A DNA stretch of 64,000 nucleotides, from positions 62,001-126,000 of the forward strand of contig NZ_PXXO01000003.1 in assembly GCF_003011885.1 (NCBI RefSeq), read 5' to 3'. Shown here one piece after another: positions 5,048 to 58,244 of the stretch. Position 1 is the first letter of the stretch. Each line of letters opens with the position of its first letter. The position numbers and the translations under genes were made by a program. The notes under the pieces are model-generated. The model worked only from the letters and a program-made list of their open reading frames with translations. It was not told the DNA's origin and did no database searches. This DNA comes from Cyanobium usitatum str. Tous (GTDB lineage: Bacteria > Cyanobacteriota > Cyanobacteriia > PCC-6307 > Cyanobiaceae).

Positions 5048-5245
5048 CTAAGGCCTTTCGGTCGGTGCCTGCGAGGCCTCGACAGGAGCGCTCTGGCAGG
5101 AATAGATGTTGCCCGACGCTTGGCAAATGTACTCGGTTTTAAAGTTTGAGTACACAAACGTATTGCCACCCTTTAAGACGACATATCCGATCCCTAGCCA
5201 TTGCTGAGCACATATCGCCAGTATTGACGTGCAGATGAAGCTCAT
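5048..5245 (-). CDS. small membrane or exported protein translationally coupled to TPR gene
   Basis: A 65-residue product starting MSFICTSILAICAQQWLGIG, a hydrophobic segment that can be a membrane anchor or signal sequence, followed by a tyrosine/cysteine-containing part (FVYSNFKTEYICQASGNIYSC) and a short polar tail. Its ATG overlaps the TGA of the upstream TPR gene in an ATGA junction. This strongly suggests translational coupling and is the main evidence that it is real. No family is recognised. Small size, hydrophobic N-terminus and cysteines make it similar in kind to the other small exported proteins here. Confidence 0.55.
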   Translation of the reverse strand: MSFICTSILAICAQQWLGIGYVVLKGGNTFVYSNFKTEYICQASGNIYSCQSAPVEASQAPTERP

Positions 5246-5862
5246 TGGATTGCTTCGCAATTGATGGCGGGATTGTCTTGCTTTCTGGGCCTCTTCTTGT
5301 TTAGCTTTTTCTCTTCACGTTGCCGGGCTTCTTCGAGGAGGAGCTTGACCAGTCTTCTGAGGTAGGGACTTCTTCTCAGTTTTGCAATCTCAATGTCTTC
5401 TAGTGCCAAAGTGATCTTGTCCTCGAGCATGTAAGAAGCTGCCCTGAGTAAGTGAACCCCTCGCGTCTCGGGCTTGCAATCCAAAAGCTTGGTATATGCC
5501 GCTATCGCCATTTTGTGGTTCCCTTGCCTTGCCATGGCATAGCCATAGGAATGCCAGATGTCTACAAAGTTAGGCTCGCGAAAAATGCACTCCCTGAAAT
5601 CATCCGCCGCTTTTCCATACCAAGCAAGACGTGCGTAGTAGAGGCCCCTTTGATACAGGCAAAAAGGGTGCCTCTGGCACTGGTCCATTCCGGAAGACAA
5701 GACCTTGATAGCTAACTTCAGCTCATCTGCTTCCGCGTACTCCTTCGCCGATTCAATCCATTGATAAACACGCCAGTCCACACTGTGATCTGGAAATGCC
5801 GATAGGTCCAGTGGTAATGCTTCAAGGACCTCCAGCGTGACTCTGTTTTCCTGGGGCTCCAT
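5242..5862 (-). CDS. TPR repeat protein
   Basis: A 206-residue soluble protein made mainly of tetratricopeptide repeats, for example HPFCLYQRGLYYARLAWYGK, then FVDIWHSYGYAMARQGNHKM, then HLLRAASYMLEDKITLAL, with a lysine/arginine-rich C-terminus. TPRs bind other proteins or peptides. No signal peptide is visible, so it is probably cytoplasmic. The ATG at 5862 lies only 31 nt from the GAAC half of a minus-strand copy of the bipartite motif (5884-5914), divergent from the lipoprotein gene. A binding partner in the same cluster is likely but unproven. Confidence 0.75.
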   Translation of the reverse strand: MEPQENRVTLEVLEALPLDLSAFPDHSVDWRVYQWIESAKEYAEADELKLAIKVLSSGMDQCQRHPFCLYQRGLYYARLAWYGKAADDFRECIFREPNFVDIWHSYGYAMARQGNHKMAIAAYTKLLDCKPETRGVHLLRAASYMLEDKITLALEDIEIAKLRRSPYLRRLVKLLLEEARQREEKKLNKKRPRKQDNPAINCEAIQ

Positions 5863-5883: not shown

Positions 5884-5914
5884 CTTTTAGTTCCGAGGGC
5901 GATTTGCTGATTCC
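5884..5914 (-). promoter_or_regulatory. bipartite motif, copy 1 (upstream of TPR gene)
   Basis: Read on the minus strand: TGGAATCAG, then 13 nt to GAACTAAAAG, with the exact spacing of the other copies. The start codon of the TPR gene is 31 nt from the first base of GAAC, the shortest leader of the set. It forms a divergent pair with copy 2, only 10 bp away. Confidence 0.75.
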
Positions 5915-5924
5915 AAGTGGATTT

Positions 5925-5955
5925 GGAATCACCCTCAAGCAACCAGAACGAGGAG
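5925..5955 (+). promoter_or_regulatory. bipartite motif, copy 2 (upstream of lipoprotein-like gene)
   Basis: TGGAATCAC, then 13 nt to GAACGAGGAG. The ATG of the downstream gene is 68 nt after the first base of GAAC. A small stem (GGAC-ACAA-GTCC, 5970-5981) lies in the leader. Back to back with copy 1. Confidence 0.8.
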
Positions 5956-6013: not shown

Positions 6014-6334
6014 ATGGAATCCACGAAAAACAACAGCTGGCCAGTTCTGGGCGCAGCCTTTCTCATTCTTTGCGGAATCTGTACTGCATGTAGCGGCGGT
6101 AGTCAAGGGATGACTGACTACCAGCGGTCTCAAGTTCAACTCCAACAGCAGCAGCTTAATCAGCAGTCAATTGACAGTGCTCGTCAGGCTGCTCAAAGTG
6201 CCATGAACAATGCAACACAACTGCTGAATTCACCGGTCCCAGAATATGGTGTTGACCCGAACCAATCACAGACCAACTGTGTCACTGGAGCTGATTACAT
6301 GGGAAGGTTGGTGACCCAATGCAACAGCCAGTGA
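6014..6334 (+). CDS. putative small lipoprotein, Gln-rich
   Basis: A 106-residue protein with an N-terminal signal-type segment (WPVLGAAFLILCGICTAC) ending in an ICTAC sequence that could serve as a lipobox, followed by a Gly/Ser linker. The mature part is rich in Gln, Asn and Ser (QVQLQQQQLNQQSIDSARQA), helical at first, then CVTGADYMGRLVTQC with two cysteines at the end. It is likely anchored in the periplasm or outer surface. It is transcribed from copy 2 of the bipartite motif and converges with the secreted-protein gene 6339-7061. Confidence 0.65.
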   Translation: MESTKNNSWPVLGAAFLILCGICTACSGGSQGMTDYQRSQVQLQQQQLNQQSIDSARQAAQSAMNNATQLLNSPVPEYGVDPNQSQTNCVTGADYMGRLVTQCNSQ

Positions 6335-6338: not shown

Positions 6339-7061
6339 TTATCGACAAGCTCGTTGAATCACTGTTTGTTGAAGCTGCTTGATGGCGCTGCCTTCTGGAG
6401 CCTTATCGGAGAACAGCAGGGCCAGGGCAAGACCTTGCTGTTTGGTATTCAGTGCCGATTGGATTGACCCGCGCCAGGCCTGTGGATCAGATCCCAATTT
6501 TCGAATCTTGGCTTCCGTTTCTGACATGACTTCAGATGATCCTGCAACCAAGTTGTAACTAGCAAAATCACCCCCTGAGGCTCCCTTTGGCCGGACTCTT
6601 AATGTGAGTCTCTGGTTTGGACTCAGGGGCTGAATAGGCCAGGCAATGGGTCCTTCGATGCTCTTGGTGCTGGACGCTAGCTTTTGCCAGAGAATCCCAT
6701 CTTGGTTCTCAAGGCGAAGCTCATTTAAGGGGCCTTTAACAACAATTGTTGGTCGACTAACCAATGCCCGCAGGCTGGATCCTGATCCGATCTCGGCGGC
6801 AGATGCCCCTGGCGAGACCACACAAACACTGCCATCGCTACTACTACGACTGCCTCCCACCGCACTGGGGGTGCCGATTCCGACGAGTTCCCTGATTTGC
6901 TCAAGCAGACTGGGCTGAGGAGGTTTTGGCTTGTTCGCGGGCTTAGCGGCTGATGCCGCACTGAGCTGGGGCAATAGCAATGGGCCTGACAAGCAAAGTC
7001 CCAGAAGCCAAGGGCTGAGTCTGCTGTTGGCTGTTGCCCGGTAGGAGGAGGTTTTTTTCAT
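6339..7061 (-). CDS. secreted protein of CHAT-CHASE2 operon, possibly DUF928-like
   Basis: A 240-residue protein with a signal peptide (basic start, LLGLCLSGPLLLPQLSAASA, cleavage near residue 38). The mature part has a Ser/Gly-rich region and a beta-rich domain (SLRALVSRPTIVVKGPLNEL, then ENQDGILWQKL, then PNQRLTLRVRPKG). The layout recalls DUF928, a cyanobacterial periplasmic family often encoded with CHASE2-CHAT proteins, but I am not certain of membership. It starts 3 nt after the stop of the CHAT-CHASE2 gene, so it is the last gene of a tightly packed operon. Confidence 0.65.
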   Translation of the reverse strand: MKKTSSYRATANSRLSPWLLGLCLSGPLLLPQLSAASAAKPANKPKPPQPSLLEQIRELVGIGTPSAVGGSRSSSDGSVCVVSPGASAAEIGSGSSLRALVSRPTIVVKGPLNELRLENQDGILWQKLASSTKSIEGPIAWPIQPLSPNQRLTLRVRPKGASGGDFASYNLVAGSSEVMSETEAKIRKLGSDPQAWRGSIQSALNTKQQGLALALLFSDKAPEGSAIKQLQQTVIQRACR

Positions 7062-7064
7062 CTT

Positions 7065-9233
7065 TCAACGCCTGCTCAGGACGACGGCTGTGAGAGTTGC
7101 TAGTGGCAGAACCAGGGGGATGAGAAAGAGTGTGCCTCCCACCAGGGGCGTCACTGCAATTTGCAGGGCCACCACCGTAGTGGCAATGGCGATGACTCCC
7201 AGCCAGAGGAGTTGTCTTGATCGCCTTGTCTCCACTGCTGCAAGGACCACCCCAAGACCTGCAGCAAGTGCGGCCGTGGCACTTTGAAGCAGGGGGGTAA
7301 GCCAATGGTGCATGGCAACGGATTGGGCCAGAACGGCCTGCACCAAGACACCTGGGATTGTTGAATCCGCTTGCTCCAGACTGCTGAGGGCCCGCTTGGC
7401 TGCCCAAGGGGCCACAAAGACATCCTTCCTGCTGTTGGTTGTATTAACGCCGTAGCCATTACTGCCGACAAGAAGGATTGGGGCTTTGAGTTTTTCCAGT
7501 GATTGACGATCACGCATTGGCGTGATCATGCTTTGCCAGTTGATGGACCAATCGATGACTGCCTCTGATGGGATCTGACCATCTGCGTTTCCGCTGACTG
7601 CAACTGCAAAGTGTTTCCCCCATAAACCGTGGTGCAACTGAAGTGGCACTAGTTTCTCCTCTGGACAATTGGAATTGGAGTTTGAACTTGTTTCGACTGA
7701 CAGATCAAAGGATTGAAGTCCTTCAGCCGTCAGTTCCGTTAATGGGTGGGATGAACTTCCCGAATTAGGTGCACAGGTTGTGGGACCGAAGTAGCCAGCA
7801 AAAAGGCTTGGCCGCCGTTGCTTCTGGATCGTTGTCAGGAATTCCTGGTAGGCAGCTGGATCGGATCCCTTGGAATCAAGAACGAAGTCCAGGGCTACAG
7901 AGGGGACGCGTTCAGGTGGGGCTGCTTGCAGAACCCTGGCTAAAACCTGGCGGGAAACCTGATCGCCCTCCTGATTGGGATCGACACCGAAGTCTTGGTA
8001 GGCCTTGGCATCGAGCATGAGCAGGGGCAGCGCCGCAGTTGATGGACCTTCCTGGTGAGTGAGCTGCCGCCATACCCGCTGGACATTCAACCGTCGATCA
8101 AGCAATCCCAAGTTCACCGGGTTCCAGGGGACCAGATCGTTGGTGGCGCCGAGTACGACGGCAATAGCCGCTGCAACAAGCTGGGGTTTTTGGCTGCTTG
8201 CTAGGCGGAGCTTGATTTGTTGACGCTTCCTGAGCGGCAGGGTGAAGCCCGTGGCATCGGTGCAGCTCACAGCGCTGAGCAACAGTTCGCTAGTGGCCGG
8301 GCCTTCTCGGCCGAGCAGCTCACGGACCGCTCCTATGGCCTGGGAAAACGGAACTCCTGCTTCCAGCTTCTCAAGCAGGCTCAACACTGTGATGGCAGCA
8401 GCCTGGGTTGGGACTTTTTCGCGGAAGCACAGGGTCCAGGGGATTCCAGCGCCACAGAAGGTTTGGGCCAGATCCAACCCGCTGCAGCTGGCCAAAACGG
8501 CTAGACCCAGACCATTGGATGCGGCGGTTTTTAGTTCCGGTGTGAGTGACGCCCCTGCTATCGAGCCGCCATCACCAAGGAGTAGCCGCCCTCCAGTGGA
8601 GGGGTCGGCATCGGAATGGCCTAAGAACGCCAGCAAATCCCACCCTTTGGCTTGAGCCAGGGCAGATCGAATCGCAGATGGATGGCACTCAGCCCCCCGC
8701 AACACGGTGAGATCGATTCGTCCCTGCCGCTTGAGGGTTGAAAAACGCTCCAGTTCTGGGCTGAGATCGAGGCCGCGTTCATTGCCGACAAGCAGCAGAA
8801 CCCGGGTCAGACGCCCAGAAGATCGATTTGACTTGAGAGCACAGCTGGCTTGACCCAGCCGCCAAATGGGGCGAGCAAGGGGAAGCTGCTCCCAAGGAAG
8901 AAGGGCCAGTTGGCCCGTTCCATCGAAGCAAGAAATCCGCAGCGGCAAGCCTGGATGACTTTGCAGGGCCTGCTGCAGCGGTAGCCAGCTGCCGTCTTCC
9001 AGCCATTCGCCCAGCAACACGCATAGGCGTTCGGCGTAATGGCGCACCGCATCAGCTGTTGGCCGCCCTTGCTCCAAGTGGAGGATCAGTTTGTCGATCC
9101 ACAGGTCGCGAGAGCGGAACAGTTGATCAGGGATGGATAAGGCGAACGAGCGATTACCCGTAGGACCCTGCAAAAAAGCCGTTACGACAGGGCCTGTATC
9201 AGCCCTGTGCAGCTGCAGATCAAAGGACTCCAT
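7065..9233 (-). CDS. CHAT protease domain fused to CHASE2 sensor, membrane protein
   Basis: A 722-residue protein. Residues about 100-330 form a CHAT (caspase-like) domain with the catalytic pair visible: His206 in LLAFLGHSDAD and Cys250 in LAVLASCSGLD. A membrane segment near residue 350 (QLVAAAIAVVLGATNDL) is followed by a CHASE2-type extracytoplasmic sensor region (LPLLMLDAKAYQDFG, PSVALDFVLDSKG). At the C-terminus are three hydrophobic segments. The architecture (cytoplasmic protease, periplasmic sensor, membrane bundle) is known in cyanobacteria next to DUF1822. The start overlaps the DUF1822 stop (TGATG), so translation is coupled. The signal sensed and the substrate are unknown. Confidence 0.88.
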   Translation of the reverse strand: MESFDLQLHRADTGPVVTAFLQGPTGNRSFALSIPDQLFRSRDLWIDKLILHLEQGRPTADAVRHYAERLCVLLGEWLEDGSWLPLQQALQSHPGLPLRISCFDGTGQLALLPWEQLPLARPIWRLGQASCALKSNRSSGRLTRVLLLVGNERGLDLSPELERFSTLKRQGRIDLTVLRGAECHPSAIRSALAQAKGWDLLAFLGHSDADPSTGGRLLLGDGGSIAGASLTPELKTAASNGLGLAVLASCSGLDLAQTFCGAGIPWTLCFREKVPTQAAAITVLSLLEKLEAGVPFSQAIGAVRELLGREGPATSELLLSAVSCTDATGFTLPLRKRQQIKLRLASSQKPQLVAAAIAVVLGATNDLVPWNPVNLGLLDRRLNVQRVWRQLTHQEGPSTAALPLLMLDAKAYQDFGVDPNQEGDQVSRQVLARVLQAAPPERVPSVALDFVLDSKGSDPAAYQEFLTTIQKQRRPSLFAGYFGPTTCAPNSGSSSHPLTELTAEGLQSFDLSVETSSNSNSNCPEEKLVPLQLHHGLWGKHFAVAVSGNADGQIPSEAVIDWSINWQSMITPMRDRQSLEKLKAPILLVGSNGYGVNTTNSRKDVFVAPWAAKRALSSLEQADSTIPGVLVQAVLAQSVAMHHWLTPLLQSATAALAAGLGVVLAAVETRRSRQLLWLGVIAIATTVVALQIAVTPLVGGTLFLIPLVLPLATLTAVVLSRR

Positions 9234-10243
9234 CAGCTTTTCGGCAGTTGCAGCAAGGGCAGTTCAATCGGTTCACTGGATCCAAAAGCAACCGAAACGG
9301 CCAGCAACTCGGAGCTGGAGGGGAAGTTCAGATCCAAGTTGTCGCTGTTTTCACTGGTGATGGATTGAACGTGCTCACCTTGGCGCGCAATCAGGGTCAG
9401 GCCATCAGGAAGAAGGTCGCCGATCAGGGCAGGTGCCAGGCGTAAATACAGACCATCTGGGTGGATCGGAATTAGGGATAGATCGAATCGCTCAAGACAC
9501 CGCTGGGCTGTCAGACCCGTGACAAGCGACCCATCTGCCAGGCCAAGGGGAATAGAAACCATGGCCAGCGCCCCCTCAACAGGAGGCAAACCAACCCCAC
9601 TTCTGGTTGCACCGGCTGTAACGGGAACCAAACCACCACCTAGGGCAGCCAGGCTTTCATCGAGTTGACCGTTCAGCCAATCAAGAACCGAAACCACCGT
9701 CTTTTGCAAGGCGGTGATGGGATCAGCTGGAAGGGCCAGACGGGGCAGAGCGGCAGGTTCAAGAAGCTGAACCAGGATCAACAGCCGATCAATCCCCCCT
9801 TTGAAGCAAGCGGTATTGAGCACAAGAGCGGCTGAGTCGGAATCCGCATTTTTGGCTTGAGCCAGAAGCTCCTCCCCTGTCAGGACCCCAGGGAAAAAGA
9901 CGACGTTGTTCTCCTCATCTACGGCAGCAGCAAGCAAGAGCTGCGGGGCCAGGGCTGAGTCTTCCCAAAAGGATCGTTTGACTAAGACCTCATCACTGGT
10001 GATGCCAGTGGTCGCCAGCTGCACAGAGAAACGGTTCAAGCTCAACAGCCGAGCGGTATCCTCGGGTTCGATGGTTGGACCAAAAGGCAAATCAAGGTTC
10101 CGTTCATCCATGGCTTGCTTGAGGGCAGCCACGGCAAGAAGCCGGTCCTCGTGGGCAAACGCCAAGGGCAATTCGCCCAACTCGATTGCCCCTTGGGGCA
10201 TCTGCATCACATCAAGCGGTTCTTGGGAAGAGGGTGTGTTCAT
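9233..10243 (-). CDS. DUF1822 family protein
   Basis: A 336-residue protein with no signal peptide. It resembles the cyanobacterial DUF1822 family in length, in the Phe-Ser-Val-Gln-Leu segment near the N-terminus (LLSLNRFSVQLATTG), and in context: between a sigma-like gene and a CHASE2-CHAT gene. The start (ATG at 10243) overlaps the TGA of the upstream gene (ATGA) and the stop overlaps the CHAT-CHASE2 start. The three proteins are therefore made together. The role of DUF1822 is unknown; the constant linkage suggests an adaptor or a regulator of the protease or of the sigma-like protein. Confidence 0.82.
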   Translation of the reverse strand: MNTPSSQEPLDVMQMPQGAIELGELPLAFAHEDRLLAVAALKQAMDERNLDLPFGPTIEPEDTARLLSLNRFSVQLATTGITSDEVLVKRSFWEDSALAPQLLLAAAVDEENNVVFFPGVLTGEELLAQAKNADSDSAALVLNTACFKGGIDRLLILVQLLEPAALPRLALPADPITALQKTVVSVLDWLNGQLDESLAALGGGLVPVTAGATRSGVGLPPVEGALAMVSIPLGLADGSLVTGLTAQRCLERFDLSLIPIHPDGLYLRLAPALIGDLLPDGLTLIARQGEHVQSITSENSDNLDLNFPSSSELLAVSVAFGSSEPIELPLLQLPKS

Positions 10244-11538
10244 GGCTGGTTTAGGTATTGCTGAATCCAGCGGCGTAGGGGGGCGACATCTCCCTCTCGT
10301 TCTGGCTCCAGCAAGTGATTCCGAAGGGCATTAACCAAGCGCTCAGCCCCTTCTACGGACTGGCTGACGGAAGCAAAAGCCTGATGGCGATTGAGTTCTT
10401 GGGCTGCGGCTGTGGCGATGATGGTTGCGTGCTCGGTAGGGCGCAGCTTTTTGCTTACCGTCCCGCAGGTGGTGCCGCAGCGCTCGGCTAGAGGACGATT
10501 GGTGAGGCCCTCTGCCCAGCCAGCCCAGAGGCAGCGGAGGAGTTCCGCATTTTTCCCACTCGCAGCCAAGACGTCTGGCATGAGCTGGTCCATGGCCCGT
10601 TGCAATGCATCGCTTACCAGCGCTTTGAGCTCACCACTAGAAGGGCCAACATCATCATCTGAATTGGCCTGTGAGCTGGGATCGACGGGCTCAAAGCCAA
10701 CCTCAGCTGCTTGATCGAGGCTCTGGTTGGAGCTGCCGGTCAACAACAGGCGAACAGCCTTCGCGATCGCTTTCAGGCGTTCAGTAGTCGCGAAGGGATC
10801 CTGATCAGGAGCGAGCTCCCTGAGGAACGCCGGATCGGGCTGCCAGCCCGATGACTTGCCGGTTCTGTTTTTGTAGTCGCGCTTAGCGGCGTCATACAAA
10901 GGTCCATAACGGCTATGCAGGGCAGACAAAAAAACGACGGTGTCATTAGTTCTTAGTTGTTCCTGGCAGGCCTGGCGGACCCGGCTGGGGCTGCTATTGC
11001 GCAATAGGGCCCAATCTGAGATCAGAAGCAAGCCGTGCTGCCGGAAGTAGGCCTTGAGCTCGTTGTGAGCCTGAATTTTGAGCCTTGCCCAATGGGGCAG
11101 CCCGCAGAGTGCCGAGTCGTAACTGCGCAGGATCTCAGCGGAAAAGGGCGTGCTCATCCCTTTGGGAAGCAATGCCAGTTGTGTATGGGCGAAGGGCTTC
11201 AGCTCATCAGGCCCAATACGGAGCGTGAGCTTCCCCTCATCGTCGAGGGCGTAACTCGCCATGGCCAACAGCTCAAGCCCGTAGCGTTCTTCGTTGGCTC
11301 TGTGGGTGGCACAAAGCCAGGCTTCTAGAGCATGGCTGATGCGGCAGCGCAGGCAGAGCAAGGGCAGTGGGTCATCGTCCCGCATCCCCGCAAGGAGCAA
11401 CGCAGTATCAAAGCTTCGTGATGGCTCTGGCTCTGGCTCTTGGTCATGGCCCTGGCCCAAATACTGGGCGGCGTCTGCCAAAAGCCTGGGCTTGATTCCA
11501 GTGGTCGTGAGACTGCAGAGCTCCTGGTATTGCCCCAT
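10240..11538 (-). CDS. sigma-like / HTH regulator of the CHAT-CHASE2 operon
   Basis: About 432 residues from the ATG at 11538 (the frame is open further; a GTG just upstream is an alternative). A mid-region RYGPLYDAAKRDYKNRTGK and a C-terminal helix-turn-helix (LLRCLWAGWAEGLTNRPLAERCGTTCGTVSKKL, a sigma region-4-like pattern) recall the sigma-70-like proteins encoded with DUF1822 in cyanobacteria. A second possible domain follows (ERLVNALRNHLLE). It is the first gene of the operon (ATGA overlap with DUF1822) and is divergent from a gene driven by bipartite motif copy 3. It is the best candidate in the window for the protein that reads the motif, which is inference. Confidence 0.6.
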   Translation of the reverse strand: MGQYQELCSLTTTGIKPRLLADAAQYLGQGHDQEPEPEPSRSFDTALLLAGMRDDDPLPLLCLRCRISHALEAWLCATHRANEERYGLELLAMASYALDDEGKLTLRIGPDELKPFAHTQLALLPKGMSTPFSAEILRSYDSALCGLPHWARLKIQAHNELKAYFRQHGLLLISDWALLRNSSPSRVRQACQEQLRTNDTVVFLSALHSRYGPLYDAAKRDYKNRTGKSSGWQPDPAFLRELAPDQDPFATTERLKAIAKAVRLLLTGSSNQSLDQAAEVGFEPVDPSSQANSDDDVGPSSGELKALVSDALQRAMDQLMPDVLAASGKNAELLRCLWAGWAEGLTNRPLAERCGTTCGTVSKKLRPTEHATIIATAAAQELNRHQAFASVSQSVEGAERLVNALRNHLLEPEREGDVAPLRRWIQQYLNQP

Positions 11539-11604
11539 TGCAGCCCTGCAGGTCTGTCGCACCGTAGGAAAGCGAAGCTGGTTTTGCCCAGTCCACAGCG
11601 ATCT

Positions 11605-11635
11605 GGAATCACTTCGAGGCAGGCAGAACAAGAGG
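11605..11635 (+). promoter_or_regulatory. bipartite motif, copy 3 (upstream of small exported protein)
   Basis: TGGAATCAC, 13 nt, then GAACAAGAGG. The ATG at 11674 is 48 nt after the first base of GAAC. It sits in the divergent region between the sigma-like gene (start 11538) and the exported protein. A hairpin GTGGC-TGCG-GCCAC (11652-11665) ends 8 nt before the ATG, and no Shine-Dalgarno sequence is present. Confidence 0.8.
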
Positions 11636-11673: not shown

Positions 11674-11943
11674 ATGAGCATCCCCAGATTGAACCCATTC
11701 CTGTTGGGCGCTGCTGCCGCCGTTGCCGGGCTTCTTACCCAACCAGCCCAGGCCCAGATGTATGGCTATGGCAGTGGCTGGCAGCAGCCAAGGCAAAGCG
11801 GCCCGCTCATGAGGCCCAGCCAATCCGGAGGCATCTACCAGTCCAACCGACCCGTGATGCAACAACCAAGCTTCGGCCCACAACGTCAGATGCCCAGTCA
11901 ACAGGGCAATGGCTACAGGAGCGGTAGCTATTTCGGCTGGTAG
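11674..11943 (+). CDS. small exported Gln/Gly/Tyr-rich protein
   Basis: An 89-residue protein: signal peptide (FLLGAAAAVAGLLTQPAQAQ, cleavage after AQA near residue 27), then a low-complexity mature chain rich in Gln, Ser, Gly, Pro and Tyr (MYGYGSGWQQPRQSGPL), ending NGYRSGSYFGW. The ending resembles the NGWSSGDYFG block of the paralogous pair 15319-15594 and 57491-57769. It is preceded by bipartite motif copy 3. It lies opposite to and upstream of the sigma-like operon. Function unknown; such composition is seen in matrix or surface peptides. Confidence 0.7.
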   Translation: MSIPRLNPFLLGAAAAVAGLLTQPAQAQMYGYGSGWQQPRQSGPLMRPSQSGGIYQSNRPVMQQPSFGPQRQMPSQQGNGYRSGSYFGW

Positions 11944-12320
11944 GTAGCCCAGGCAATTCACAACCCGACGAAAAGTGGGTCGATTTAGTCCCCGCTTTCT
12001 TTTGGTTCAACCGTTGAGATATGCGGCATTACGGCGTAACCTCAGAACAGCACCCGTCGTTGCAGTTGCATTTAGTGGCGGCCCTTTTGGATTGACATGG
12101 CTTGCAACTTCATCCGCCGCCACATTCCTTATGCTAACGCTTTGGTGATTCAATCTGCAACAGCTTATTCCATAATTTCTACTGGGCTTGATTTAGTTGC
12201 TCCTCTGCTAATACGGCCAGAGCGGATGTCGCGTGTAACTTCGCCAGGGAGCAGGCCATGTGAAGTAACAAGGGGAACCAGGAGGCAATTTGCCATGCAA
12301 AATGTTTGCAGACGGTGGCC
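11944..12320 (+). other. non-coding stretch upstream of TPR-CHAT gene 1
   Basis: I see no convincing gene here. It does not contain an intact bipartite motif. It does hold GAACCAGGAG at 12275-12284, which matches only the downstream half and lies 46 nt before the ATG at 12321, the same distance as in true copies. The upstream half is absent at the expected position. The GGAGG within it is too far from the start codon to be a ribosome binding site. Confidence 0.4.
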
Positions 12321-15221
12321 ATGACAGGTAAATCCTTAGGCTTCGTACATAAGGGGCTCGCCATCAGCCTCATGGCATCTGCGGCACTGGTCTCAGTACA
12401 GCCGGGTTATGCAGCTACTGCCAGGGTGGCACAGGCGAATGTCAATCAAAGCACACGTAATCAGCCTGATCTTAAGGCGATGATTGAGCGGGCTGAAAAA
12501 CTACGCACGGAAGAGAAGTTTGGTCCTGCGGCAACCATCTGGCAGCAAATATTGCTCGTTGTTGAAAAGTTGCATGGGCCGGATCATCCCGATGTAGCCA
12601 ACAGCCTCAGTAACCTTGCGTTTCTTCTGAACACACAGGGACGGTATGCCGCTGCCGAACCCCTCTATCGCCGCTCCCTGGCCATCCGAGAAAAAGCCCT
12701 CGGGCCTGACCATCCCGAAGTTGCGTGGAGTCTCAATAATCTGGCGTTGATGCTGAACGAGCAAGGGCGGTACGGTGCCGCCGAGCCTCTCTACCGTCGC
12801 TCACTGGCCATCAAAGAAAAAGCTCTCGGGCCAGACCATCCCGATGTCGCTACCAGTCTCGTCAACCTTGCAGATCTTCTGAAGAATCAAGGGCGGTATG
12901 GTGCCGCCGAGCCTCTCTACCGGCGCTCACTGGCCATCCTAGAAAAAGCTCTCGGGCCGGACCATCCCGAGGTTGCGTTAATTCTCAATAATCTTGCAAT
13001 GCTTCTGAGTAAGCAGGGTCAGTACGCAGCAGCCGAGTCTTTCTATCGCCGTTCTCTGGCCATTCACAAAAAAGCCTTCGGGCCGGATCACCCCGCCGAC
13101 GCACCTGTCCTCAACAACCTGGCGTCGCTTCTGAGCGACCAAGGTCAGTATGCCGCAGCCGAGGCGCTCTATCGACGCTCTCTGGCAATTCAAGAAAAAG
13201 CATTAGGACCGGGTCATCCCAATGTAGCCATTCTCATCAACAACCTGGCGTTGCTTCTGAGCGACCAAGGTCAGTACGCCGCAGCCGAGGCGCTCTATCG
13301 ACGCTCTCTGGCAATTCAAGAAAAAGCCTTCGGGCCGGATCACCCCGTTACCGCAGTTATCCTCAACAACCTGGCAGAGGTTTTCTATTATCGTGGGCAA
13401 TACAGCTCCGCCGAGCCACTAGTTCGACGATCACTGGCCATCCGTGAAAGTGTTCTGGGGGCAAATCATCCCGATGTCGCTACAACGCTTGGCAAGCTGG
13501 CGTTTCTTCTAGGCGAACAAGGTCAGCACAGCAGCGCCCTAATCGTTCTTGATAAATCTGAAAAGGTAAAGACAAACTGGTACCTAAAAGAACTTCCGCT
13601 GCTTCCCGATCGAGATCGGGCCACTCAATTACGCCAACTAGCGGATGGGGATGAAAGGGAATATACCTTCGGGATGATTGAGTTCTACCCACCCGCGGTC
13701 CAACTAGCTCTGGAGACCCGTCTCAACCGCCAAGGCTTGCTTCGGGATATTGAACGGAGTCAGGCCTTGCTGCTCAATTCACCTGGTGTTGATCGCATAA
13801 AGGTGAAGCAGTTGCAGGCTCTGGCCCAGCAACTGACATCTGTCACGTTGTCGATTGATCGCCGCGCTGAGGTGGCCAGACAACGGGGCAAACTGCAGGC
13901 TGAGATCTACCGACAGATCCCAGAGCTGCAGCTTCACCCTGTAACCACCGCTGAGGTAGCCAAGGCATTGCCGGCTGATGGGGCATTGGTGGAGTTCCAG
14001 CGCTACCAGCCCTTTGACGGGCGTAAGCAAAAAGACCAGCGCTGGGGCGCGGCCCAGTACATCGCCCTTGTGCTCAAACCCAACGGCAGCATCAGCGCAG
14101 TGCCTCTCGGAGCAGCAGCGGCGATTGACGCGCAGGTGCATAAGGGGCTGAGGGCCTCGGCGGATGGACTCTCTGATGCCGAGTCGATCTGGGCTCAGCT
14201 AAGCATCCAACTGCTCAAGCCCCTATTGCCTCAGCTGACTGACAGCCACCAATGGTTTCTCTCCCCTGATGGTGAGCTCAACCGGGTGCCGTTTGCCGCA
14301 CTGCCAGCCCCGCAGCAAATGGGTACACCCCTGGCTCAGGCGGTGCAGCTGCGGCTGCTCACCACCGGCCGGGAACTAGTTCGGCTCCAACAACCCGCAC
14401 CGCCTGGCAGTGAAGCACTGGTGATGGCCAATCCCAACTACGAGCGCCCCAGCACCAAGCCGCCGCCAGCCAGAAAGCCCGATGCGGTGTCCACCATGAC
14501 TCAGCGACGCTCAGCGGAGATGGGCAGCAACCAGTGGAATCCGTTGCCGGCCTCAGAACTTGAGGGGCAAAAGGTGGCGAAGCTGCTGGCTACCGGGCTG
14601 ACCAGCGGGGCAGCAGCCACGACCACGGCGCTGCAACGCCTGCAGGGCCCCAGGGTGCTGCATATTGCCACTCACGGCTTCTTTGTCGCTGATCAGGAGA
14701 CCAAACCCACAGAAGGAATGCGAGCAATCCAGGAGGGGTCGCCGCTGCTGCGCTCCCTGCGCCAGGAAGACCCCCAACTGCGCAGCGGCTTGGTACTTGC
14801 CGGCGCCAACCAGCCTGACCTCGACCCCAACGACGACGGATATCTGACCGCGGCCGAGGCGGTGACGCTGAACCTCAAGGGAACTGAGCTGGTAGTGCTT
14901 TCGGCATGCTCCACAGGCCAGGGGGAAGTGCGCACCGGTGAGGGTGTCTACGGGCTACAGCGCTCGCTAACCGTGGCAGGCGCCAGAAGCACTCTCCTTT
15001 CTCTCTGGAAGGTGGATGATGCGGCTACGGCTGAATTCATGACCCGCTTCTACAAGCGCCTTAAGGCAGGAGAGGGAAGAAGCGACGCTTTGGCCGCTAC
15101 CCAGAAGGAGTTCCGCGACGTACAGGTTCGTGATCCCCAATCCAAATTGGTCTGGAGTTCGCCGTATTACTGGGCAGCCTGGCAGCTGGTAGGGGATTGG
15201 CGGCCTATCAAAGGTCTCTAA
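12321..15221 (+). CDS. exported TPR-CHAT protein 1
   Basis: A 966-residue protein. A signal peptide (AISLMASAALVSVQPGYAAT) leads into eight near-identical 42-residue kinesin-light-chain-type TPRs (residues about 75-410; GPDHPDVA and EPLYRRSLAI in each repeat). A helical linker is followed by a C-terminal CHAT domain with catalytic His785 (LHIATHGFF) and Cys863 (VLSACSTGQGE), and the family end SPYYWAAWQLVGDWRPI. CHAT proteins are caspase-like proteases; the TPRs would bind targets or regulators. The signal peptide places it outside the cytoplasm. I chose the ATG at 12321 because the frame's upstream codons precede the signal peptide awkwardly. It heads the run of small-protein genes that follows. 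Confidence 0.9.
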   Translation: MTGKSLGFVHKGLAISLMASAALVSVQPGYAATARVAQANVNQSTRNQPDLKAMIERAEKLRTEEKFGPAATIWQQILLVVEKLHGPDHPDVANSLSNLAFLLNTQGRYAAAEPLYRRSLAIREKALGPDHPEVAWSLNNLALMLNEQGRYGAAEPLYRRSLAIKEKALGPDHPDVATSLVNLADLLKNQGRYGAAEPLYRRSLAILEKALGPDHPEVALILNNLAMLLSKQGQYAAAESFYRRSLAIHKKAFGPDHPADAPVLNNLASLLSDQGQYAAAEALYRRSLAIQEKALGPGHPNVAILINNLALLLSDQGQYAAAEALYRRSLAIQEKAFGPDHPVTAVILNNLAEVFYYRGQYSSAEPLVRRSLAIRESVLGANHPDVATTLGKLAFLLGEQGQHSSALIVLDKSEKVKTNWYLKELPLLPDRDRATQLRQLADGDEREYTFGMIEFYPPAVQLALETRLNRQGLLRDIERSQALLLNSPGVDRIKVKQLQALAQQLTSVTLSIDRRAEVARQRGKLQAEIYRQIPELQLHPVTTAEVAKALPADGALVEFQRYQPFDGRKQKDQRWGAAQYIALVLKPNGSISAVPLGAAAAIDAQVHKGLRASADGLSDAESIWAQLSIQLLKPLLPQLTDSHQWFLSPDGELNRVPFAALPAPQQMGTPLAQAVQLRLLTTGRELVRLQQPAPPGSEALVMANPNYERPSTKPPPARKPDAVSTMTQRRSAEMGSNQWNPLPASELEGQKVAKLLATGLTSGAAATTTALQRLQGPRVLHIATHGFFVADQETKPTEGMRAIQEGSPLLRSLRQEDPQLRSGLVLAGANQPDLDPNDDGYLTAAEAVTLNLKGTELVVLSACSTGQGEVRTGEGVYGLQRSLTVAGARSTLLSLWKVDDAATAEFMTRFYKRLKAGEGRSDALAATQKEFRDVQVRDPQSKLVWSSPYYWAAWQLVGDWRPIKGL
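12565..13510 (+). repeat. tandem 126-bp repeats encoding TPRs
   Basis: Eight head-to-tail copies of a 126-bp unit, each coding for one 42-residue TPR. Some neighbouring units are almost identical at DNA level: the stretch starting near 13120 recurs almost unchanged near 13246. This points to recent duplication or gene conversion within the gene. Confidence 0.8.
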
Positions 15222-15251: not shown

Positions 15252-15282
15252 GGAATCACCCGCCTGACGTTCGAACGAGAGG
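15252..15282 (+). promoter_or_regulatory. bipartite motif, copy 4 (upstream of small exported protein)
   Basis: TGGAATCAC, 13 nt, then GAACGAGAGG. The ATG at 15319 is 46 nt after the first base of GAAC. The leader has a short stem TGGC-GCTC-GCCA (15299-15310) ending 8 nt before the ATG, and no Shine-Dalgarno sequence. Confidence 0.82.
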
Positions 15283-15318: not shown

Positions 15319-15594
15319 ATGAAAAGCCTTGTTCGTTTCCTCGCAGTTGCTGGTTCCATCGCTTCAATCTCGGCAACCGCAGTTCAACCCGCATCTGCTC
15401 AATGGGCTACCTACGGACTGAGCCGCCAACAAATTGAGCTCCAGCGTGGAAATGGCTGGTCTAGTGGCGACTATTTCGGATCTGGTGGCGGTCCCAGGAG
15501 TCAGTATCAGCGTGTAAGCAATGACTACTCACCCGGAATGGACCAGAACATCCGTTATCGCTCTGGCTCCTGTGCTCAATATATCTATTGCTGA
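15319..15594 (+). CDS. small exported protein, family A (paralogue of 57491-57769)
   Basis: A 91-residue protein with a signal peptide (LVRFLAVAGSIASISATAVQ, cleavage after PASA near residue 27). The mature part reads QWATYGLSRQQ, then NGWSSGDYFG, then SPGMDQNIRYRSGSCAQYIYC. The gene at 57491-57769 has the same blocks in the same order (QWGSYGLSQQQ, NGWSSGDYFG, TPGLQNNVRYRQNSCATYLNC), so the two are paralogues. Two cysteines at the C-terminus may form a disulphide. It is driven by motif copy 4 and ended by a clear intrinsic terminator. It sits between two TPR-CHAT genes. I recognise no described family. Confidence 0.8.
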   Translation: MKSLVRFLAVAGSIASISATAVQPASAQWATYGLSRQQIELQRGNGWSSGDYFGSGGGPRSQYQRVSNDYSPGMDQNIRYRSGSCAQYIYC

Positions 15595-15654: not shown

Positions 15655-16117
15655 TGTAGGCATCTGTATAGATACGTGGTTTCTTCAAAAAAGTCAGATC
15701 TGAGATTATTTGATTAAGTATCTATTGAGTATTCTTCTGTACAGGTCTGGCGCATAGCTGGCCATAGCCCCTAGATCCAAGCTGGCACTTTTCTACCATT
15801 GCTCATGGGTTGCTCTCATCCACGCCTCGAGGGGGTGACTCAGTCTGCAGCGCATGCAGAGCAGGGGGAACGGGTCAGGCTCCGCTAGGCATCTTGTCAG
15901 CAGTTCCCTATCCTGCGCTGGAGTGGGTTACTCCCCTATCTATCCAAGCTGGTTTAGCCAGGATTGTGCTGCGGGGATGGGCTTGGCTTTGATAACTCCT
16001 GTGGACTCAAGCCTCTTGATCTCCGTAAAGACCTGCACAAAAATAAATAAGTGGCTTATCAAAACCGAACACGCAGTAAGATCATGCGACATGATAGAGC
16101 GTATAGACTGTAACGCT
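15655..16117 (+). other. non-coding stretch before TPR-CHAT gene 2
   Basis: It lies between the terminator and the second TPR-CHAT gene. The downstream frame is open back to 15854, but the translated extension (QSRGNGSGSARHLVSSSLSC and so on) is not protein-like, and the signal peptide begins after 16118. No copy of the bipartite motif was found. Base composition changes from GC-rich to AT-rich towards its right end. Confidence 0.4.
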
Positions 16118-18982
16118 ATGGATAGGATGAAGCCGTTTGCCCTGCGGGTTGTTCTCATGATTTCCACCTTGGCTATAGTAGCCAATGGAATTCAGGCAAG
16201 ATGCGCACATGCCATTGTAGCGAACAGCAATAATGAAGAAAAAAGCAACATCGCCGAGCCAGATTCAAGGCCGATTTTTTTTAGATTAGTTTCTGAAGCA
16301 AATGAAAAATGCAAAAAACATGAGTTGGAGAAGAAAGAATTAGATCTGCGAGATGCTGAAAGCTTGTTTCTGAAGGCAAGAAGTCTTGCCAAAAAAGGAA
16401 GAGACGGCAATGGAATTAGGTCATTAGTGGATCTACAATACATACAGAACTGCCTGGTGAAACGAAATGACTGGGATGCAATTATTCAGCTCGCAGCTGA
16501 AATTAAAGAAAGCGTTGGGGAATATAAGACCGAATTAGAAAAAAGCCTATATCTAGACTCCCTTGACTGGGGAGGATGGGCTCTGTATAAGAGAGGAGAA
16601 ATAGAAAAGGCGATTGACAGCAGAGAAGAGATTTTAAGGCTTGGCCCCGCAGAACCAAATTGGAGCCTAAATCATCTGATACTTATCATAGAGCAAACAG
16701 TAGGGATAGCCTCGGAAGCAAATAAATTCGAGAAAGCCGACCAATTAATAACAAAGGGCGACCAATTAGTTTCTAAGATGCAAGCTGGCGAAGAGAAAGA
16801 CAGGCTAACCGCAGAAGTTTCAATATTGTTAATGAAATCCATATCAATGCAAAGGAGATCAGACTATCTAGGTGGCTTAAAAATGGCCAGGCAAGCCGAA
16901 ATGATAATCAAAAGCTCAAAGCAGCCCCCCATGTATCAATATCTTATGTACAGAATCTATGCAAACGAAGGCTCGTCTTATGAAGGACTTGATAAATACG
17001 TGCAAGCGCTAGAAGCATTCCAATCTTCACTAAAGTGTGCAGAAAAGATTTTCGGCAGCAACAGCAGGGAAGTTGCTGTTGGATACCTAAATATTGCCTC
17101 CCAATACAACGAAATTGGCAAGTATCAGGAGGCTATAAGCGCACTAATGAAAGCCAATGGCATCGCAGTCGATGTACTTGGCAATAATGACCCAGACACC
17201 ATAAACATACATCAACTAATGGCTGCAGTTAAATTCAATATGAGGAAAACTGGAATTGCTGAATTAGCAGCACAAAGCGCTGAAATTAGCGAGTCTGAAA
17301 GGATCCAAAAAATAACTAAAGTCTATGACCCATTTATTGGGCAAATGGAGCTAAACAAAGCTGCTATGTTAATAGATCTGGGGAAAGCAGAAGAGGCGTT
17401 TTTGATTGCCAAAAGTGGTGTAACTAAGATTTCTGAATCGATCCAGACAATACTTCCTCGGCTATCAGAAAGAGAGAGAGTCGGAGCGGCAAATAGTATT
17501 GAAGGTGATATCCAGGCAATATACTCTTACATGAAAAAGATGAATGGCTTTGGGAAAGCGAATGAACTTGCATTGTTTGCTCGAATAAATACTCATGGGC
17601 TAATTCAAGAGTTAGCAAGAAGGCAAGTGGTGCTTAACCCCGGAGACAAGCAGGGTAAGCAATTAATCAAAGAGCTGGATGAACTTCACCAAAGAGGTGT
17701 TAACGAACTAGTGAGCCCATCAAGAAAAGAAGAATTAAATTTAAAAAAAAATGAATTTGAGCGTGAATTGTATTCGCGAATTCCGGCTCTTAGGCCATTA
17801 TTAGTGTCAAGCGAAGATATAGGCAAGAAAATGGGAAGCGGAGGAATCCTTATTGAGCTTGTCAAGTATCGGCCCTGGGACATCAGCAAACCACGATCCG
17901 AAAGATGGAGCAATGCGCGCTATCTGGCACTTGTTTACAGCGCGAGACTGAACACTAGCTATTTTGACCTTGGCGAGGCAAAAGAAATAGATAAAATAGT
18001 AGACGAGGCTTTGGTTTCTGCCCAGGAAAATCTTTCTGATTCAACTGAGCAACTCAATAGAGTAGAAGCTTTGGTTTTCAAGCCTCTAATGAAAATAATC
18101 GCTCCATATAAGGAAATTTATCTCGTACCAGACGGAGAGCTCCATAGAGTCCCGTTTGCCGCCCTAAGTATTTTCCAGTCAAGACTCAAGAAGCTAAGGT
18201 TGCTGACAACATCCCGAGAGCTTGTGCTTGAAAAATCTAATTCATCAAGTACTGGGAAGCCAGTAATTTTTGCAAATCCGAATTACAACAAGGGTCTAAG
18301 TGGTGAACCACATACTAATGCTGGCAAAAAAGATAACGAAAGAGGATCAATAAGTGGGTGGGCGATTTTGCCTGGTTCGTTGGTAGAAGGGCGACAAATT
18401 GCGGATACATTAAAGGGTGAACTTGTAACTGGCGACGAGGCTACGGATACAAGGTTAAAAGCAATGAAGAGTCCAAATATATTGCATCTTGCTACTCATG
18501 GCTTTTTTTATCGAGCTGAAAAAGCATCAAGCGATGATCCAATGAGCCATAGTGGAGTTGTGTTGGCCGGTGCCAATGCTGGATTAACTGGCAACAATTT
18601 CGGTAGTGGAGTATTGACTGCCAGCTCTGTCTCTCTGCTGAACCTCACTGGCACAGAATTAGTTGTTCTTTCTGCTTGCGAAACGGCCAATGGCACGATA
18701 CAAAGTGGAGAAGGTGTATACGGGCTTCAACGTGCACTATCAATCGCCGGATCACATAGTACTCTCTTGTCGCTATGGAAAGTTGATGACAATGCAACAG
18801 CCGCATTCATGAATATTTTTTATAAGCGTTTGAAGACTGGTGAAGCTCGAAGTGAAGCCCTAATTAATACACAGTCTGATTTTAGAGAGGGGAGGTTGTC
18901 GAAGGAGAAAGGCTGGCAAAATCCTTACTACTGGGCTGCCTGGCAGCTAACTGGCGATTGGCGTCCAATAGCAGGGCTCTGA
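16118..18982 (+). CDS. exported TPR-CHAT protein 2, AT-rich gene
   Basis: About 955 residues. A signal peptide (FALRVVLMISTLAIVANGIQ, possible cleavage near AHA) is followed by a long helical TPR-like region (for example ALEAFQSSLKCAEKIFG, then EVAVGYLNIASQYNEIGKYQ) and a C-terminal CHAT domain with His794 (LHLATHGFFYR) and Cys854 (VLSACETANG), ending NPYYWAAWQLTGDWRPI. The CHAT half is clearly homologous to protein 1 (SPDGELNRVPFAAL against VPDGELHRVPFAAL). The start could be ATG 16118, 16127 or 16091. The gene is visibly richer in A and T than its neighbours, suggesting separate acquisition. Confidence 0.87.
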   Translation: MDRMKPFALRVVLMISTLAIVANGIQARCAHAIVANSNNEEKSNIAEPDSRPIFFRLVSEANEKCKKHELEKKELDLRDAESLFLKARSLAKKGRDGNGIRSLVDLQYIQNCLVKRNDWDAIIQLAAEIKESVGEYKTELEKSLYLDSLDWGGWALYKRGEIEKAIDSREEILRLGPAEPNWSLNHLILIIEQTVGIASEANKFEKADQLITKGDQLVSKMQAGEEKDRLTAEVSILLMKSISMQRRSDYLGGLKMARQAEMIIKSSKQPPMYQYLMYRIYANEGSSYEGLDKYVQALEAFQSSLKCAEKIFGSNSREVAVGYLNIASQYNEIGKYQEAISALMKANGIAVDVLGNNDPDTINIHQLMAAVKFNMRKTGIAELAAQSAEISESERIQKITKVYDPFIGQMELNKAAMLIDLGKAEEAFLIAKSGVTKISESIQTILPRLSERERVGAANSIEGDIQAIYSYMKKMNGFGKANELALFARINTHGLIQELARRQVVLNPGDKQGKQLIKELDELHQRGVNELVSPSRKEELNLKKNEFERELYSRIPALRPLLVSSEDIGKKMGSGGILIELVKYRPWDISKPRSERWSNARYLALVYSARLNTSYFDLGEAKEIDKIVDEALVSAQENLSDSTEQLNRVEALVFKPLMKIIAPYKEIYLVPDGELHRVPFAALSIFQSRLKKLRLLTTSRELVLEKSNSSSTGKPVIFANPNYNKGLSGEPHTNAGKKDNERGSISGWAILPGSLVEGRQIADTLKGELVTGDEATDTRLKAMKSPNILHLATHGFFYRAEKASSDDPMSHSGVVLAGANAGLTGNNFGSGVLTASSVSLLNLTGTELVVLSACETANGTIQSGEGVYGLQRALSIAGSHSTLLSLWKVDDNATAAFMNIFYKRLKTGEARSEALINTQSDFREGRLSKEKGWQNPYYWAAWQLTGDWRPIAGL

Positions 18983-19022: not shown

Positions 19023-19053
19023 GGAATCACCCGAAGAAACCTGGAACTAGGGG
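19023..19053 (+). promoter_or_regulatory. bipartite motif, copy 5 (upstream of repeat protein)
   Basis: TGGAATCAC, 13 nt, then GAACTAGGGG. The ATG at 19095 is 51 nt after the first base of GAAC. The motif's downstream flank (TAGGTGTCCGGAGGGAAA) is shared with copy 6, so these two leaders are duplicates. The leader contains a perfect stem GGAGGG-AAAA-CCCTCC (19063-19078). Confidence 0.82.
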
Positions 19054-19094: not shown

Positions 19095-19334
19095 ATGTTT
19101 TTCCAGCAGATCCGCCCAACCCTTGGTGGCGGCTACAACATCATGGACAACCAAGGTCATTACACCCAGGTACAACCCACCCTTGGCGGTGGTTGCAATA
19201 TCTGGGACAACAAAGGTCATTTCACCCAAGTCAACCGCACCTTGGCTGGGGGCTACAACATCATGGATAACCAAGGACATTTCACCCAGGTTCAACCCAC
19301 ACTTGGCGGTGGGTGGAACATTTTTGGCAATTAG
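19095..19334 (+). CDS. small protein made of 20-residue Gly/Asn repeats
   Basis: A 79-residue protein that is almost nothing but a repeat: PTLGGGYNIMDNQGHYTQVQ, repeated nearly four times with changes at few positions (Y/C/W after GGG, M/W/F after NI). There is no signal peptide. The regular 20-residue period with Gly-Gly-Gly and Asn turns suggests a beta-solenoid or amyloid-like stack. It is transcribed from motif copy 5 and is followed by the interrupted exported ORF at 19376. I recognise no described family. Confidence 0.72.
   Translation: MFFQQIRPTLGGGYNIMDNQGHYTQVQPTLGGGCNIWDNKGHFTQVNRTLAGGYNIMDNQGHFTQVQPTLGGGWNIFGN
19113..19334 (+). repeat. 60-bp tandem repeats coding for the Gly/Asn repeat protein
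   Basis: Three full copies and one partial copy of a 60-bp unit in phase with the reading frame. Many differences fall at third codon positions (for example CATTACACC against CATTTCACC), so the protein sequence appears kept under selection. Confidence 0.75.
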
Positions 19335-20055: not shown

Positions 20056-20086
20056 GGAATCACCCGACTTCCGCCAGAACTAGAGG
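20056..20086 (+). promoter_or_regulatory. bipartite motif, copy 6 (upstream of small exported protein)
   Basis: TGGAATCAC, 13 nt, then GAACTAGAGG. The ATG at 20128 is 51 nt after the first base of GAAC. The leader is largely duplicated from copy 5, with a stem AGGTGT / ACACCT (20088-20109, 10-nt loop). No Shine-Dalgarno sequence next to the ATG. Confidence 0.82.
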
Positions 20087-20127: not shown

Positions 20128-20373
20128 ATGCGTACTCGCATCCTTGCTCTGATCGCTGCTACACCTCTTGCTTTGATGGCTGGAAGCAATGTGGCACAAG
20201 CCTATCCGCTGTCTTACTACGGCTATGAATCTCCTTCCAGCAGCTATTTGATGGTTGATGGCCCTGGTGGCTACTCCGGCATGGGTTTTGGTGGAAGGAA
20301 TTGGGGAATGTATTCCGATAACTATGGCAGCACCACCTGCGTGTCTTCTGGCAACGCAGTGATGTGCTTTTAA
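20128..20373 (+). CDS. small exported Gly/Ser/Tyr-rich protein
   Basis: An 81-residue protein with a good signal peptide (TRILALIAATPLALMAGSN, cleavage after AQA near residue 25). The mature chain is rich in Tyr, Ser and Gly (YPLSYYGYESPSSSY, later GGYSGMGFGGRNWGMYSDNY) and ends CVSSGNAVMCF with two cysteines, as in family A. It differs in sequence from family A but shares its size, composition, C-terminal cysteine pair and promoter motif (copy 6). It is followed after 30 bp by a larger hypothetical gene in the same direction. Confidence 0.75.
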   Translation: MRTRILALIAATPLALMAGSNVAQAYPLSYYGYESPSSSYLMVDGPGGYSGMGFGGRNWGMYSDNYGSTTCVSSGNAVMCF

Positions 20374-44088: not shown

Positions 44089-44715
44089 ATGGCTTCCCCG
44101 CTTTCTCCCTGCCGCCGGCAGCAGGCGCAGGCCCTCAGCCGTTGTGCCCTCAAGGCCCGCAATGCCCTGGTGCTGGAGCACCTCCCCCTGGCCGATGCCA
44201 TCGCCACAGCCACTGCTCGGCGCCTGTTCCCGCTGGTCGAGCGGGAGGATCTGGTCCAGGTGGCCCGTGAGGCCCTGGTTCGCTCCGCCCCCCGCTGCAG
44301 GGCCGGCGAGCCTCCAGCTCCCTACCTGCGCCGCTGCATCACTGGGGCCTTACAGCATCACCTGCGCGATCGGGTTCGGCTGGTGCGCATTCCCCATCGC
44401 CTGCATGAGCAGGGCCAGTGCCCGCTGGGGCACACCAGCCTCGATGCCCAGGTTGATGGCGAGCACTCCCTGCTCGATCAGTTGGAGGCGCCCGCAGCCG
44501 AGCTGGCCTCAGGCAGTGATGCCGAGGAGCTGGCCGTAGAGCAGCTGGTCGAGCAGCTGCCCGCTGCCCAGGCCACCGCGTTGCGGCTCACCTTGCTGGA
44601 GGGCCTAACGCTGCGCGCCGCTGGGCTCAAGTTGGGCATCAGTGCCATGGCCGTGCAACGAGCCCAGAAGAAGGCCATCGCAGCCCTGCGCCTGCAGCTG
44701 GTGGGTGGGGGCTGA
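44089..44715 (+). CDS. sigma-70-like factor, small
   Basis: A 208-residue protein from ATG 44089. A region-2-like part (ALVLEHLPLADAIATATARR, then LVEREDLVQVAREALVRSA) and a region-4-like helix-turn-helix (LTLLEGLTLRAAGLKLGISA, then MAVQRAQKKAIAALRLQL) fit a compact sigma factor of the FliA/SigF-like or mobile-element type. It may drive genes of this element. It is a second, weaker candidate for the protein that reads the bipartite motif, but it lies far from all copies. Confidence 0.65.
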   Translation: MASPLSPCRRQQAQALSRCALKARNALVLEHLPLADAIATATARRLFPLVEREDLVQVAREALVRSAPRCRAGEPPAPYLRRCITGALQHHLRDRVRLVRIPHRLHEQGQCPLGHTSLDAQVDGEHSLLDQLEAPAAELASGSDAEELAVEQLVEQLPAAQATALRLTLLEGLTLRAAGLKLGISAMAVQRAQKKAIAALRLQLVGGG

Positions 44716-57805: not shown

Positions 57806-57836
57806 CTCCTCGTTCTGGGTTTGGCTCCCTGATTCC
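57806..57836 (-). promoter_or_regulatory. bipartite motif, copy 8 (upstream of family A exported protein)
   Basis: Read on the minus strand: TGGAATCAG, 13 nt, then GAACGAGGAG. The ATG at 57769 is 46 nt from the first base of GAAC. A stem CGGCC-CTT-GGCCG (57778-57790) ends 8 nt before the ATG. Confidence 0.82.
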
Positions 57837-57854
57837 ATGACGGTGTGTCCCGTG

Positions 57855-58160: not shown

Positions 58161-58244
58161 GGTGCGAGGAGGGGAACATCCCTTGCTTCTCACCTGCGTG
58201 GGCCACAGACCATTCCAGCGGATTCCAGGCGCCATACCGCCAGT

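Follow-up and report, generated by a model that had tools for sequence, protein, structure and literature searches.

A sigma-like gene, its proposed dedicated promoter motif and a DUF1822-CHAT/CHASE2 operon in Cyanobium usitatum and its relatives

The 64,000-nt stretch of Cyanobium usitatum str. Tous analyzed here, which we call the window (contig C19:62001-126000), belongs to a 2.5-Mb genome of the Cyanobium/Synechococcus/Prochlorococcus family. It contains an operon that begins with the gene of a sigma-like protein, and a recurring DNA motif that we propose to be the promoter served by that protein. Four minus-strand genes are chained in the operon. The first (10240-11538) encodes the sigma-like factor of 432 aa, made up of a sigma2-like domain (residues 36-170), a helical middle part, a region-4-type helix-turn-helix (HTH) at about residues 331-365 and a C-terminal extension. 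It overlaps by ATGA (10243-10240) with the gene of a 336-aa DUF1822-type protein (9233-10243), a proposed cytoplasmic partner and anti-sigma candidate, which is joined through TGATG (9235-9231) to the gene of a CHAT and CHASE2-type protein with four predicted membrane helices (7065-9233). A 3-nt gap (7062-7064) separates the latter from the gene of a secreted DUF928-like protein of 240 aa (6339-7061). An earlier annotation of the window, here called the sequence-only reading, had described these four genes and their junctions, and all were found as it described them.

The domain labels in that reading fared less evenly. Searches of the window proteins with Pfam and NCBIfam gave no sigma, DUF1822 or CHASE2 match; DUF1822 and CHASE2 were matched in relatives joined to these proteins by profile. 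The DUF1822 assignment comes from profile similarity to members of PF08852, which relatives match at E 8e-27 and 1.5e-36, and CHASE2 was seen in relatives at E 9e-14 and, at E 2e-4, in a 43%-identical protein of locus L023. The CHAT domain of the 7065-9233 product was matched by Pfam (E 2e-7), and the caspase-fold residues His206 and Cys250 are conserved in 27 and 28 of 31 aligned sequences, respectively, the rest being mostly gaps. Orthologues of the sigma-like gene occur in 21 of 251 family genomes; others, less closely related (E down to 1e-40), are spread over the class. The order sigma, DUF1822, CHAT/CHASE2 recurs across the class, and DUF1822 stands directly after the sigma gene in most of these operons. 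Eight marine-type operons without CHAT/CHASE2 keep the sigma and DUF1822 genes, with DUF1822 fused to a DUF928-like domain that resembles the secreted protein of the window (phmmer E 1e-22 to 1e-30).

In an attempt to learn whether the first gene encodes a sigma factor, as the sequence-only reading had supposed from an HTH resembling region 4, we compared its product with known sigma factors. The HTH is present near residues 331-365 in hhalign alignments with the genome's own sigma factors; it aligned to region 4 with P 0.011, but MarR, LsrR and other HTH proteins score just as high. Only one of 18 members of the sigma-like family matched Sigma70_r4_2, at 0.027, and a PDB sequence search gave matches at the HTH level only. 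The structure comparison proposed by that reading showed a resemblance to sigma domain 2. Because Foldseek with the whole model was weak (best match sigma32, E 0.37), a single-domain model was needed; it covered residues 36-200, was built on 38 relatives (predicted local distance difference test score 89) and was compared with the PDB chains ranked highest by Foldseek. Residues 36-170 of this predicted model fold like sigma domain 2. Among the chains compared, the 20 best were all sigma factors or their parts (Z 8.0-4.0), led by sigma32 (Z 8.0; 3.4 Å over 96 residues), sigmaS (7.9) and WhiG (7.3) and extending to E. coli sigma70 (4.0), while the first unrelated fold scored 2.8; the structural listing for the whole model was likewise dominated by sigma factors. 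By eye, a conserved ILxSFDPxxSxLxTWxxxKV segment may recall the KFDPxRGxxFSTYAxWWIR of sigma region 2. The protein does not have the composition of a canonical extracytoplasmic function (ECF, group 4) sigma factor, which holds sigma2 and sigma4 only in about 200 aa, because it is 432 aa long and has extra helices at residues 175-267 and after the HTH. Its gene is absent among the 12 PF04542 matches of its own genome, one of which is a separate sigma70 region 2 match (E 3.5e-8) at 44167-44379 (+) in the window. Close orthologues at L005 and L020 differ in the HTH sequence (SQRxIAxxxxHxQxWVSKLL, vs. TNRPLAERCGTxCGTVSKKL in the window). A degenerate remnant of another sigma-like gene also lies at 15742-16026 (-), comprising the N-terminal 96 residues at 44% identity with two TAG codons and one TAA, and adjoins a duplicated arrangement of TPR-CHAT and small genes.

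The motif has the form TGGAATCA-N14-GAACNAR, with a pyrimidine-purine (YR) step 9 nt downstream and no sigma70 -10 box. Its pattern matches the window six times, against 0.08 expected, and an unguided dyad search of intergenic DNA returned GGAATC-N15-GAAC as the top dyad (six segments). In 51 aligned copies of the N13 type, TGGAATCAC is followed by 13 variable bases and GAACnAGAAG, with a pyrimidine in 87% at +35 and a purine in 97% at +36; flanks and spacers vary while the two blocks are conserved, and no TAnnnT box was found at any fixed offset. The distance of 16 nt from GGAAT to GAAC is that expected between -35 and -10 elements. Downstream of 52 of the 58 sites, an open reading frame (ORF) starts with ATG at a distance of 25-68 nt, compared with 16% of random positions, and 33 of 55 downstream products have a hydrophobic N-terminus, compared with 50 of 244 control ORFs. 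Most copies stand 27-64 nt ahead of small secreted or TPR genes, and the targets are unrelated genes across genomes. Alternatively, the protein may be a classical HTH activator and the motif its operator upstream of ordinary promoters, as sequence profiles detect the HTH only, the length of 432 aa exceeds that of ECF sigma factors and Pfam finds no sigma domain. We consider this unlikely: the sigma2-like fold stands clear of all other folds listed, and the two blocks are spaced like -35 and -10 elements and followed by a YR start, with no TAnnnT at any fixed offset thereafter.

The sequence-only reading had placed a motif copy in the divergent promoter region of the sigma-like gene. An exact copy does lie there (11605-11635, + strand, exact match 11605-11629), but it points away from the operon, toward a gene for an 89-aa secreted protein at 11674-11943 (+), a proposed regulon member with a similar small gene in the same place at L023 and L134. 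On the other side of the operon, two copies stand back to back, one at 5925-5952 (+) upstream of a lipoprotein-like gene (6014-6334, +) and one at 5887-5915 (-) upstream of a TPR gene (5242-5862, -), both genes being proposed members of the regulon. Further plus-strand copies precede a small secreted gene (copy 15252-15279, gene 15319-15594), a 79-aa Gly-rich repeat gene (19023-19050 and 19095-19334) and an 81-aa secreted gene (20056-20083 and 20128-20373). In a second cluster, a copy at 57809-57837 (-) lies upstream of a 92-aa secreted gene (57491-57769), an apparent paralogue of the one at 15319, and a copy at 58244-58272 (+) lies upstream of a 58-aa ORF (58311-58487). The copies at 5887, 57809 and 58244, together with one inside the sigma-like gene described below, are additions to those noted earlier. 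Elsewhere in the genome, outside contig C19, no further exact copy was found, and five matches with one mismatch look like background. We also asked if a conserved 5′ UTR hairpin of the GGAGG-CCTCC type follows the motif; over 58 leaders the mean z was -0.4, and the hairpin is not a general feature. Some leaders, including those at L033 12081, L034 7625 and window 19023, do open with a strong hairpin, the sequence of which varies (GGAGG-CCTCC, GGGG-CCCC).

Both motif clusters, at 4-22 kb and 56-62 kb, fall in stretches of lower GC content (0.41-0.59 vs. about 0.65), which suggests acquired or variable regions. Two large TPR-type genes adjoin the motif-bearing small genes, at 12306-15221 and 15854-18982 (+); a CHAT domain is clear in the product of the former, and DNA repeats show the latter gene to be similar to the former at the 3′ end. 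GC-rich repeats at 48141-48541 may be collagen-like coding sequence of the GPQ type, judging by eye.

We then examined in the 251 family genomes whether the sigma-like gene is a predictor of the motif, as the sequence-only reading had proposed to check, counting TGGAATCA-N14-GAAC[AGT]AR. This was borne out, with the motif in 17 of 21 carriers and in 6 of 230 non-carriers (Fisher P 5e-18). When only genomes at least 90% complete are counted, 14 of 17 carriers have it and none of 150 non-carriers (P 8e-18). Because related genomes are not independent, these P values are only guides. The six motif-positive genomes lacking the gene are all less than 90% complete, and four of their seven sites lie inside ORFs; one of the six, G210, is 71% complete and has a plausible back-to-back motif pair. 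Three carriers at least 90% complete have no motif: G250, and also G018 and G187, in both of which the gene sits on a contig that is short or broken. Within the genus of the window, both carriers have the motif and the 14 other genomes have none. As an independent test, we also scanned 2.9 million viral contigs of IMG/VR with the full pattern, blind to the sigma gene. Of 14 matches, 13 were recurrent coincidences in phage coding genes. The remaining one, L134 (IMGVR_UViG_3300007216_000158), has the motif 3 kb from a sigma gene 67% identical to that of the window; it also carries a DUF1822-type gene and three motif copies, including divergent and internal ones of its own. Its scan site was flagged by our filter as lying inside a long ORF, yet the site precedes the ATG of a 306-aa ORF by 27 nt, like other sites. 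L134 is filed as viral, but could be either a cyanobacterial island placed in the wrong category or a mobile element. Motif-like sites were also present near all eight marine-type loci, and were intergenic in seven; L032 has a single site with no clear ORF after it.

The copy directed toward the operon, which the sequence-only reading did not contain, is located at 10299-10322 (-) within the 3′ end of the sigma-like gene itself. It reads GGAATCAC-N12-GAAC, one shorter in spacing than the others, and is a proposed internal promoter 55 nt before the ATG of DUF1822; the distance is 51-55 nt in most members of the family. In 18 of 20 sigma orthologues the 3′ end reads (CGG|AGG|AAG) AAT, mostly with CAC or CAT next, and then GAA CNA, giving a GGAATCA-like block, 13 nt and GAACNA (the first base of GGAAT is A in G090 and G017). 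Third codon positions are fixed where the code permits change, and R, Q and L replace one another as CGA, CAA and CTA, keeping GAACNA. Compared with shuffles of synonymous codons inside each gene, the codon segment with the internal copy had a z of 21.2 (25.1 when the two orthologues that have lost the copy are left out), and the best other segment 5.5. This is a clear case of a DNA element retained through codon choice, by DNA-level selection on synonymous sites. The internal motif is the same in L005 and L020, the orthologues with a different HTH. Given its position just before the ATG, the internal copy would drive DUF1822, CHAT/CHASE2 and DUF928 but leave out the sigma gene. We rejected a reading of the motif as a coding repeat, because its intergenic copies stand in front of ORFs and the one within the gene is under selection at third codon positions. 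These data also bear on the possibility that the motif is carried along with duplicated small-gene cassettes or a mobile cluster and goes unrecognized by the sigma-like protein. While copies do cluster near the operon in lower-GC stretches and some targets are paralogue-like (15319 and 57491), cassette copying leaves unexplained the conservation of both blocks between unconserved flanks and spacers, the unrelated target genes of other genomes and the selection on synonymous sites within the sigma gene, and we regard it as highly improbable.

A sigma factor with a dedicated promoter is thus well supported as the first step of a regulatory scheme. The factor would direct RNA polymerase to promoters with TGGAATCAC as the -35 block and CAGAACnAGAAG as the -10 block, and transcription would start at the YR step about 9-10 nt past GAACNA. 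The regulon would be small and local, consisting of small secreted and TPR proteins near the operon and in the second cluster about 46 kb away. With the internal promoter under its control, the factor would raise its own partners but not its own gene, likely forming a negative-feedback loop. For control, where the sequence-only reading had suggested proteolysis or partner switching, DUF1822 would hold the factor inactive. CHASE2 and the secreted DUF928-like domain would sense an extracytoplasmic signal and so activate the CHAT protease, and cleavage of DUF1822 by the protease would free the factor. In all eight marine-type DUF1822-DUF928 fusions, hydropathy predicts one membrane helix at about residues 184-207, in place of the separate proteins of the window. 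This suggests that DUF1822 and the secreted protein cooperate across the membrane in the manner of membrane anti-sigma factors; where CHAT/CHASE2 is missing, the single-pass fusion would both sense the signal and hold the factor directly. Of these elements, computation supports the sigma2 fold, the co-occurrence of motif and gene, the promoter anatomy, the codon-level selection and the topology of the fusion; RNA polymerase binding, direct motif recognition, the anti-sigma role, proteolysis and the signal we infer. Taken as a whole, a divergent sigma70-family factor with its own promoter, small regulon, internal promoter, DUF1822 holder and either CHAT/CHASE2 or a fused domain for sensing and release is in our view the probable explanation.

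Several observations weigh against it. Pfam and NCBIfam have no sigma model that fits the window protein, the HTH segment is all that hhalign aligns with the sigma factors of its own genome (P 0.011), and the structural Z values are moderate. The subclade of G250, L111, L113, L114 and L115 keeps the sigma gene and operon with no motif copy in the DNA examined, and near the operons of more distant cyanobacteria we saw neither the motif nor an internal copy; the promoter would then be lineage-specific, or changed beyond recognition. CHAT/CHASE2 cannot be essential everywhere because the eight marine-type loci lack it, and the evidence for the putative anti-sigma role of DUF1822 consists of gene order and the fusion.

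Among known systems, the EACC2-caspase-CHASE2 neighborhoods with an ECF sigma gene and DUF1822, described in silico by Kaur et al. (eLife 2021; PMC8195603), are closest. They have the same kind of gene set, namely a sigma factor, DUF1822 and a caspase-fold protein with CHASE2, and those authors already propose sigma-mediated regulation of many genes. The window likewise has DUF1822 beside the sigma gene and a caspase-fold His/Cys dyad with CHASE2, whereas the promoter, the regulon, the internal promoter and the two-gene marine-type form with its DUF1822-DUF928 fusion appear to be additions made here. Kaur et al. also group such genes with apoptosis- or immunity-like systems, which lends something to another view, in which the sigma factor and motif act as proposed but DUF1822 and CHAT/CHASE2 are outputs, such as a caspase-like effector of cell death or secretion, with sigma activity set by its own transcription. 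Both genes would stand under the internal motif promoter like any other target, and CHAT/CHASE2 can be lost. We find this view rather doubtful, as DUF1822 comes right after the sigma gene in most operons of the class, the fused DUF1822 has an anti-sigma-like layout, and a tested precedent exists for a CHAT protease that cleaves an anti-sigma factor. That precedent is CASP (type III-E CRISPR; Science 2022; PMC10028731), in which the TPR-CHAT protease Csx29 cleaves Csx30 and relieves CASP-sigma, so release of a sigma factor by a CHAT protease is chemically possible. The proposed scheme shares with CASP a CHAT protease, a sigma factor, a partner, promoter motifs borne by the locus and a small regulon; it differs in lacking a CRISPR effector or RNA trigger and in having its CHAT protein in the membrane with CHASE2. 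No RNA-guided Cas7-11 effector is among the operon genes or conserved neighbors, and the likeness is confined to mechanism. As a tentative idea, the system may be a counterpart of CASP free of CRISPR, in which the membrane sensor CHAT/CHASE2 would cleave a DUF1822 anti-sigma factor and release the sigma factor for a regulon of small secreted proteins, with delayed feedback through the internal promoter.

ECF and membrane anti-sigma pairs of the RpoE/RseA type are similar in the presumed partner gene after the sigma gene, in the -35-like GGAAT and, for the fused form, in a predicted layout of cytoplasmic domain, one membrane helix and outer domain. They differ in that the sigma factor here has 432 aa rather than about 200, with extra helical middle and C-terminal parts, in a partner family unrelated by name and in the -10 block GAACnAG. 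The cyanobacterial group 3 factors SigF-I (PMC2758279) are alternative sigma factors too, and SigG has a downstream partner gene; unlike them, the window gene is larger, falls outside its genome's PF04542 matches and is patchy in the family.

In the open-access literature, we found no report of what CHAT/CHASE2-DUF1822-sigma operons switch on, nor the CHAT domain, extracytoplasmic function sigma factors and cyanobacteria treated together. Within that literature, the operon type has been known in silico since 2021, and the promoter, regulon, internal copy and fused form appear to be new. Such operons are widespread in cyanobacteria, and in silico work has connected them with apoptosis-like signaling. 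In a small group of water-dwelling cyanobacteria, our results point to a sigma-like factor with its own promoter code for small secreted proteins. A defined promoter and a list of targets, from freshwater Cyanobium-type genomes to Prochlorococcus, make the question testable with reporters, and the fused marine-type form hints at how the membrane sensing part may work. The system offers a ready means of testing how gene expression could be controlled by a caspase-like sensor in the membrane.

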